Shown one piece after another: positions 11,664 through 20,292 of a stretch of 25,071 nucleotides of DNA. The stretch is from a virus: positions 1 through 25,071 of IMG/VR virus record IMGVR_UViG_3300020183_000430. One strand, given 5' to 3'. Under the pieces are notes generated by a model. It did not search any database, had not been told where the DNA came from, and was given only the letters and a program-made list of their open reading frames with translations. The number at the start of each line of letters is the position of its first letter. The first letter of the stretch is position 1. Position numbers and translations under genes: made by a program.

Positions 11664-11730
11664 TAAGAAATAATCAAAATTGTTGTTTTTTTGACACGTA
11701 TAGCATTAAGTATACTTTTTCTACTATTTT

Positions 11731-18131: not shown

Positions 18132-18199
18132 TTTTATTATTCCTGTTTTTAATTAACCACCCCCACCCATGTGAATAATTGTAAAAAAGCCCCCCACCA

Positions 18200-18214: not shown

Positions 18215-18276
18215 AAAAAACTATTATGTCAATGGGAGGGGAGGTTACATCAGGTTGAAACCCCTTGAGGGTTATG

Positions 18277-18299
18277 GCAGGTTGGGGTGTTCCCCCTGC
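18277..18299 (+). promoter_or_regulatory. Leader hairpin before the first plus-strand gene
   Basis: GCAG and CTGC form the base and GGGG/CCCC the top of a 23-base hairpin ending about 35 bases before the ATG at 18334. A smaller stem, AACCC/GGGTT, lies just upstream near 18259-18273. It may be part of a promoter or mRNA leader. Confidence 0.35.
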
Positions 18300-18333
18300 T
18301 TTGACACTAACTAAAACCAAAACACAAACTAAG

Positions 18334-18732
18334 ATGGCAAACGCAATCGAAATCACAGGACCACAAATCTTTCGTCTCAGAGTTCTAGAATCTGCTAGAC
18401 CTTACGCAAAAGATTCTGCTCTAGCAGGACAAACTTATTCCAGAGTGACCTACAATGGAACAGTCTTTACTATCAATGATAAAGACCCATTCCTTGCAGA
18501 CCTCAAGGCTGGTAAAGTTCACACTGCATTCTTGCTTGAGACGCAAGACACCATTGAAGATGCTGAAGGTAACTCTACTAACGTTACACGATTGGCATTC
18601 GATGGTTACGCAAGCAATGCGCAAATGATTGGCTTGACCAAGACTGATGCTGTTCTACAGTCCATCATGAAAGGGTCATTCAAAGCAGAAGCAGAACTTA
18701 GCGAGGCAGACTTACAGGCATTGGAGCAATAA
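18334..18732 (+). CDS. Unknown 132-residue protein, first gene of the plus-strand arm
   Basis: I start it at the ATG at 18334, preceded by an A/C-rich leader. A frame opening with TTG at 18265 runs through the hairpin leader. The protein is beta-rich in its first two thirds (ITGPQIFRLRVLESARPY, YSRVTYNGTVFTI), then has helices in the C-terminus (DAVLQSIMKGSFKAEAELS). It is soluble, with no membrane segment. Regular codon use and isolation behind a strong-looking control region suggest high expression. A small nucleic-acid-binding protein is possible, but no motif proves it. Confidence 0.75.
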   Translation: MANAIEITGPQIFRLRVLESARPYAKDSALAGQTYSRVTYNGTVFTINDKDPFLADLKAGKVHTAFLLETQDTIEDAEGNSTNVTRLAFDGYASNAQMIGLTKTDAVLQSIMKGSFKAEAELSEADLQALEQ

Positions 18733-18745
18733 CGCTCCTTTGCCA

Positions 18746-18889
18746 AGTTGTAATAGAAACTTAGTTTTCAGATGCCAGTAGGTAATTAATATCCCTACAG
18801 CCATGCCTGATATAATTGCTATCTAAGTCTAAAAACTATTACAACTGTAGACATTCATAGCGTGGCGAGAAATCGCTGCGCTAAATGTC
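18746..18889 (+). ncRNA. Candidate structured RNA: long compound stem plus GAAA-capped helix
   Basis: Element 1 (18746-18846) nests 11-bp (AGTTGTAATAG with CTATTACAACT), 6-bp, 4-bp, 3-bp and 5-bp stems in colinear order. Element 2 (18850-18889) has a 6-bp base, a two-base bulge (CA), then an 11-bp helix closed by a GAAA tetraloop. Two of its pairs are G-U or U-G, which pair in RNA but not in DNA. It resembles no RNA family I know. The strand is assumed from the neighbouring genes. Confidence 0.45.
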
Positions 18890-19013
18890 GTATATAAAAA
18901 CACAATCTAATGCTTCATCAAGCAAACTGATGACATATATAGATACATGTTGCATTGTATCATATGTGGTGTGAGGATGTGTTCTTATTAAAATACAACG
19001 TTTTTATGTAAAT

Positions 19014-19063
19014 GTACAATTTAATAAAGTTTTCCTCGGGGAAATCAAAACTTTGTGTTGTAC
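19014..19063 (+). repeat. Compound inverted repeat with alternative pairing
   Basis: GTACAA (19014-19019) pairs with TTGTAC (19058-19063), AAAGT with ACTTT, and TTTCC with GGAAA around the loop TCGG. The right outer arm can instead pair with TACAAC at 18994-18999, so two folds exclude each other. The role is unknown. Confidence 0.45.
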
Positions 19064-19330
19064 TTTATCAAGAAATAGTTGTGAGAATAAGAGTAGGAGT
19101 GTCACTAATAACGTATATAAGGGTGTTATTCAATGTTGTTGATTTCATTCTTTAGACACATCGTATAGCATTAATTAACATAAACGCACAAGAACATGAT
19201 AACATTATGTGTAATGCCCAATTTTAAGGGCACAAGAAAAGAGACATTGCAAGCATTTATTGTATGTGTCCTAATTGACAGTCTTTATTGTTTTCCATTT
19301 ATTCATCATTATTTATAACCAAACACGCAC

Positions 19331-20211: not shown

Positions 20212-20292
20212 TACATTATAGCATTAACATTAAAATCAAAGCAAATAATCGAATAAAAGCAAAAACTAACAATTAAAACAAAAAACACACTA

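Follow-up and report, generated by a model that had tools for sequence, protein, structure and literature searches.

Genes and features at the locus

The window analysed in this study, that is, the whole stretch of 25,071 nucleotides from the IMG/VR virus record IMGVR_UViG_3300020183_000430, encodes a terminase, a portal protein and a major head protein, as identified by PHROG families. The terminase matches those of crAss-like phages and of Leptolyngbya phage Lbo-JY46 at 25-39% identity, and the Crassvirales phages Cellulophaga phi17:2 and csAssE-Sib are terminase relatives of the window. Judged by its terminase, portal and head genes, the phage is Crassvirales-like. The features discussed below are as follows.

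11699..11709, plus strand: second copy of the 11-mer TATAGCATTAA, immediately past the 3' end of the portal gene and in antisense orientation (pattern search)
18160..18194, minus (late) strand: G-rich tract upstream of the leftward operon (the sole G4Hunter peak in the window)
18334..18732, plus strand: g1, 132 aa, first rightward gene, with a predicted SSB-like OB fold (AlphaFold and structural matches)
18746..18846, no strand: insertion, about 101 bp long, that carries 11-bp inverted repeats at its ends (no aligned relative has it; z -2.6)
18850..18889, plus strand: hairpin with a GAAA loop (GCGA-GAAA-UCGC), found in the subclade only (18847-18895, z -6.1)
18896..18986, plus strand: three-way junction P1/P2/P3 (partner-swap tests)
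18995..19082, plus strand: long arm P4/P5 with the near-invariant TGTACAATTTAATAAA inside (18982-19082, z -3.8; pair counts)
19164..19174, plus strand: TATAGCATTAA, the invariant 11-mer that closes the element (three per genus genome; family-wide)
19196..19318, plus strand: probable 40-aa gene in which the seventh inverted repeat lies (L002 and L024 retain both the frame and the protein)
20217..20227, plus strand: third copy of TATAGCATTAA, where a different conserved, hairpin-bearing spacer ends (pattern search)

g1 lies directly before the element described here and always has that position. The AlphaFold model of g1 had a pLDDT of 85.6 (window-type family). The lists of structural matches were dominated by OB folds of SSBs with weak scores: the top Foldseek match to an SSB had an E value of 0.036, and VIA gave a Z of 5.3 with an rmsd of 4.1 over 84 residues. 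In Pfam and PHROG, g1 matched no SSB family. Several proteins encoded at the g1 position end in acidic residues followed by F, for example YEDLVAF; SSBs likewise end in an acidic stretch plus F. From the predicted fold, we think that g1 is probably a single-stranded-DNA-binding protein. The leader of g1 (18215-18333) is G-rich and foldable (GGGAGGGGAGG, then GGCAGG..GGGG..CCCC..CCTGC), and it is kept in relatives.

Folding of the spacer

The earlier note had described seven inverted repeats in about 490 gene-free bases behind g1, at a density above that expected of an AT-rich spacer. All seven repeats are present, and the density is indeed in excess of chance. The minimum free energy of 18733-19330 (598 nt) was -148.5 kcal/mol against -121.1 ± 6.5 kcal/mol for dinucleotide shuffles (z -4.2), and none of 100 shuffles was as good. 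When the 101-bp insertion was removed, the remaining core of 329 nt gave a z of -6.4 on the plus strand and -3.75 on the minus strand. The excess is unevenly distributed: the strongest value was that of the hairpin region 18847-18895 (-23.6 kcal/mol, z -6.1), followed by the long-arm region 18982-19082 (z -3.8), 19190-19240 (z -2.9) and the insertion region 18740-18852 (z -2.6), but 18900-18990 gave a z of -1.5, and 19090-19150 folded no better than its shuffles (z -0.6).

No known RNA family accounted for the structure. With cmscan at gathering scores, Rfam 15 gave no match in the window, the top weak match being a yeast snoRNA (E 4.3), and a tRNA/tmRNA search of the window found none. In the relatives, Rfam 15 matched tRNAs alone, at other places. 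Two tRNA-family matches of 104-109 nt, at L008 4783-4891 and L018 7963-8066, were not called by ARAGORN; they are possibly tRNAs with an insertion or intron.

The conserved core in the genus of the window

Four IMG/VR contigs have a g1 that is 87-98% identical, and a search with the long-arm pattern added further contigs, several of them with a different g1. The alignment of this genus set separated the lasting parts of the spacer from the variable ones. The first of the seven repeats (18746-18756 with 18836-18846) is a perfect 11-bp inverted repeat, but it bounds a segment that is missing from all aligned relatives, and 18746-18846 is therefore an insertion specific to the window; no further copies of it were found. 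The hairpin at 18850-18889, the second of the seven, is kept within the subclade of the window only (present in L002-L005 and L014; absent in L008, L009, L012, L016 and L024).

The arms of the insertion (AGTTGTAATAG/CTATTACAACT) resemble the central stem of a second element that we observed in the relatives. The ends of this second element, CCCAAGG...GCAGTTGTA and TACAAYTGAGTGCAGAGGGA, are constant and enclose a hypervariable interior of 60-110 nt, so that an unchanging scaffold bears an exchangeable insert; the element has no Rfam match. It lies at L004 3848-3972, L005 6129-6258, L008 1775-1913, L018 3722 and 4135, and L225 14274; some phages have two copies, and a terminator follows it in L004.

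All complete loci share the section that starts at about 18896 and runs to TATAGCATTAA (19164-19174). This conserved core consists of a three-way junction and a long arm and ends in TATAGCATTAA. In each of four contigs 108-111 kb long it occupies a single locus, the sole exception being a partial match of 30 nt at another place in one of them. In the junction, P1 pairs 18896-18907 with 18975-18986, P2 pairs 18915-18919 with 18929-18933, with GCAAA in its loop, and P3 pairs 18933-18947 with 18956-18969. GCAAA and the junction string GGTGTGA (18968-18974) are both conserved.

We examined the pairing by a partner-swap test, in which each arm (cut by hand) was scored against the partner arms from other sequences. 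P1 scored 206 against 141 ± 17 (0/2000 as good), P2 97.5 against 81.5 ± 5.9 (11/2000) and P3 190 against 166.7 ± 5.4 (0/2000). The long arm behaves differently in that the conservation of P5 is chiefly one of sequence, and one unambiguous double change was seen, at 19029/19051; wobble changes of both kinds (GT and AC) occur in P4/P5. Thus the covariation in homologues that the earlier note had proposed to look for is present in P1, P2 and P3, as well as in the clamp hairpin described below, and the pairing belongs to a structured RNA or single-stranded DNA element that is kept through two-sided changes.

The three-way junction joining 18896-18986 is conserved and was missed in the earlier list of hairpins. 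The third repeat listed there (18911-18924) gives way to P2 as the conserved pairing, and the sixth (19107-19130), which falls in the region with a z of -0.6, is not a conserved pairing. The seventh (19215-19232) lies inside the 40-aa frame that L002 and L024 share with the window, and the stretch is thus probably not free of genes throughout. Substitutions in this frame were 2 synonymous and 3 nonsynonymous in one comparison and 4 and 4 in the other; the synonymous ones are too few for certainty.

A family-wide element

A terminase-based scan gave 531 relatives, and the analysis went on with the best 80 of these. Across relatives, the leftward neighbour gene and an HU-like gene hold their positions. 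In these loci the arrangement does not change: g1 comes first, followed by a terminator hairpin, TATATA, the first GGGTGGG box, a loop of about 5-26 nt, the second GGGTGGG box, further hairpins and TATAGCATTAA, after which there is usually an ORF. The pattern of the element was matched in at least 120 viral stretches. Of 14 genomes about 110 kb long, 12 have the pair of G boxes, once per genome except for one with two in tandem. The pair is absent from the window and from L002-L005, L012 and L014; in the subclade of the window, the G boxes are lacking and the three-way junction and the long arm remain. The chain of stem-loops in the window is the form that a structured, probable control element takes here; this element is present once per genome in a large uncultured crAss-like group.

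No GGGTGGG pair was found in phi17:2, csAssE-Sib or Lbo-JY46, and among these three only phi17:2 has TATAGCATTAA, in one copy. The whole bacterial genome-contig collection gave four pattern matches, which we take as chance because they lie in other contexts and the 11-mer is missing. A literature search found no paper on this element.

The gene before the element belongs to one of three interchanging families (34, 26 and 21 of 81), and the element behind it stays. The genes after it are unrelated (58 ORFs in 48 clusters). The element is therefore not a switch for one downstream gene, and riboswitch-like control of a single gene was rejected for this reason.

A terminator-type hairpin lies between g1 and the element in 70 of 76 distinct elements, and the ratio of GT to AC in its stems is 50:4. 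This ratio indicates that the stretch between g1 and the element is transcribed on the plus strand, with a halt of transcription to be expected at the hairpin. A 3' RNA processed from the g1 transcript, as suggested in the earlier note, is thus unlikely family-wide, and a new transcription start at TATATA fits the sequences better. In the subclade of the window, a terminator with a T-run between g1 and the element is not evident, and read-through from g1 may occur there.

The clamped pair of G boxes

In most relatives the loop between the two GGGTGGG boxes contains a hairpin, which we call the clamp. Its sequence varies freely, and its pairing scored 383 against 262 ± 8 for shuffled loops (a dozen chance-looking pattern matches were left out of this statistic) and 319 against 229 ± 7 with swapped partners. 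The pairing depends on the length of the loop. Central loops of 12 nt or less showed no extra pairing (2.15 vs 2.00 bp in shuffles), whereas those of 16-18 nt had 4.55 vs 2.57 bp and those of 19 nt or more had 4.68 vs 2.72 bp. That is, long loops have a hairpin and short loops do not, as would follow if the G boxes had to meet in a quadruplex whose loop is a duplex. In three phages, the slot contains four G runs separated by short loops in place of the clamped pair. The four G runs are thus kept in relatives even when they are rearranged; the window is without them. In the hub, G4-like patterns were found in 31/48 loci on the early strand and in 16/48 on the late strand; among 366 control windows, the corresponding numbers were 0 and 1.

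These results suggest that the clamped GGGTGGG pair of most relatives is likely a G-quadruplex. We do not claim a quadruplex for the window, because the window, like the six relatives named above, is without the G-box pair; its G-rich tract at 18160-18194 fails the four-run G4 pattern. The clamp pairs comprise 283 Watson-Crick, 3 GT and 1 AC. Neither here nor in P4/P5 do the wobble changes point to RNA in particular, and the short stems limit the use of these numbers as a test of RNA against DNA.

The 11-mer and its copies

In the four genus contigs there are exactly three copies of TATAGCATTAA per genome, and a reversed-pattern control gave 0; in the wider family the number is 0-3. Nearly all of the family has the antisense copy behind the portal gene, and the flanks of this copy are conserved. 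One subgroup has an extra copy in the late leader, which in 6/9 is preceded by a GGGGGGGATTTAGGGGGGG tract at a distance of about 300 nt. TATAGCATTA was found within 700 nt after the element in 84 of 106 cases, at a median of 167.5 nt, and in the 700 nt before the element in 0/114. An ORF starting with ATG begins within 120 nt past TATAGCATTA in 64/89. A general hairpin immediately before TATAGCATTAA was rejected (341 vs 331 ± 8 for swapped partners).

Proposed function

The place of the element, the order of its parts, its covariation and the logic of its G runs are established computationally. As to its function, we tentatively favour, as plausible rather than probable, a cis-acting structured control element (leader or initiation) at the hub that forms the start of the rightward early unit, behind the SSB-like gene; the element possibly doubles as a replication origin. 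Under this proposal, transcription of the rightward unit would restart at TATATA, and the quadruplex-hairpin structure would form in the 5' portion of the transcript, in the displaced G-rich strand or in both. A phage protein, for which the SSB-like g1 would be the first candidate, or the phage RNA polymerase would recognize it, and this recognition would set the expression of the early unit and may help to start replication. The subclade of the window has lost the G boxes and retains the three-way junction and the long arm. Counting against a simple leader or promoter model, the TATAGCATTAA that lies antisense behind the portal gene is left unexplained by it.

That the structure is an AT-rich spacer folded by chance we regard as extremely improbable: the third, sixth and seventh of the listed hairpins are not conserved, but the z values of -4.2 to -6.4, the covariation tests and the family-wide conservation at one locus contradict it. 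The two readings offered by the earlier note, a structured phage RNA and an origin, are both still live, while nothing was found to support its third, a decoy for a host factor. An origin acting as DNA, in which the AT box and the G4/hairpin strand are exposed (perhaps in an R-loop), the SSB-like protein binds and replication starts between the arms, seems rather unlikely to us, yet this reading is close in weight to that of a leader. It would fit the single copy per genome at the point of divergence, the adjoining SSB-like gene, the almost purely Watson-Crick clamp and the G4-like tracts on both strands of the hub at frequencies hardly seen in controls. The cumulative GC-skew has its minimum at about 18-19.5 kb, as an origin would predict, but the coding strand switches there, so the minimum proves little. 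No known initiator repeats were recognised, and the G boxes are lost in the subclade of the window. The more specific and still less likely proposal is a family-wide, transcription-linked crAss-like origin, in which the clamped G4 and the 11-nt site would direct strand opening and primer formation.

Two further readings are more doubtful. A trans-acting non-coding RNA of about 120-350 nt, starting at GGGUGGG (in the window near 18896) and binding a host or phage protein or pairing with a late mRNA, is improbable in our estimation. It would account for the promoter-like TATATA of its own after the terminator, the conserved unpaired strings and the lack of a tie to any particular downstream gene, and the antisense 11-mer behind the portal gene, on the late mRNA, is complementary to its 3' end. 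Yet no terminator was recognised at that 3' end, where genes start a few nucleotides past it, and the remaining copies of the 11-mer have the same sense and are unable to pair. Marginally less credible is a tandem of two phage promoters, TATATA-GGG and ATATAGCATTAA, each preceded by hairpins in a way that loosely resembles the N4 virion-polymerase promoters, the structure aiding promoter opening. The invariant short boxes at fixed places ahead of genes and the copies of the 11-mer before other units agree with such promoters, but a hairpin ahead of TATAGCATTAA is not a general feature, one copy of the 11-mer is directed in antisense into the portal gene, and the rule of loop length between the G boxes is left unexplained.

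Comparison with known systems

The virion-RNA-polymerase promoters of N4 have few copies per genome, hairpins and the involvement of an SSB, and in these points they resemble the present element. Here, however, the sizes and loops of the hairpins vary freely. No small hairpin that is general before the start box, as an N4-type promoter would have, was found (the 341 vs 331 ± 8 given above). In the pilE G4 of Neisseria, which serves recombination, GGGTGGG boxes lie 2 nt apart with a promoter beside them. The boxes and the adjacent promoter are alike, whereas the boxes here are 5-26 nt apart with a covarying hairpin between them; the likeness is one of layout.

The mitochondrial CSB II forms a G4 (PMC8780183, PMC5343656) and is likewise a G4-capable, G-rich tract near a start of replication and transcription. 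Its layout of G runs differs; the present element has a hairpin-clamped loop, further hairpins and the 11-mer, and primer formation is hypothetical here. The SSB of phage T4, gp32, represses its own mRNA via a structured target (PMC535899), which is similar in that a structured nucleic-acid element is linked to a phage SSB-type gene. The gp32 target lies on its own mRNA, whereas the present element follows g1, past a terminator in most relatives, and binding by g1 is hypothetical.

To our knowledge, little is known about the start of early transcription and replication in crAss-like phages. The present analysis gives a precise, single-copy, family-wide element of testable build, situated beside a candidate binding protein. 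Its clamped G-box pair would be a viral G4 backed by comparative evidence, namely the covarying clamp and the swapped layouts of the G runs, beyond a sequence pattern alone.
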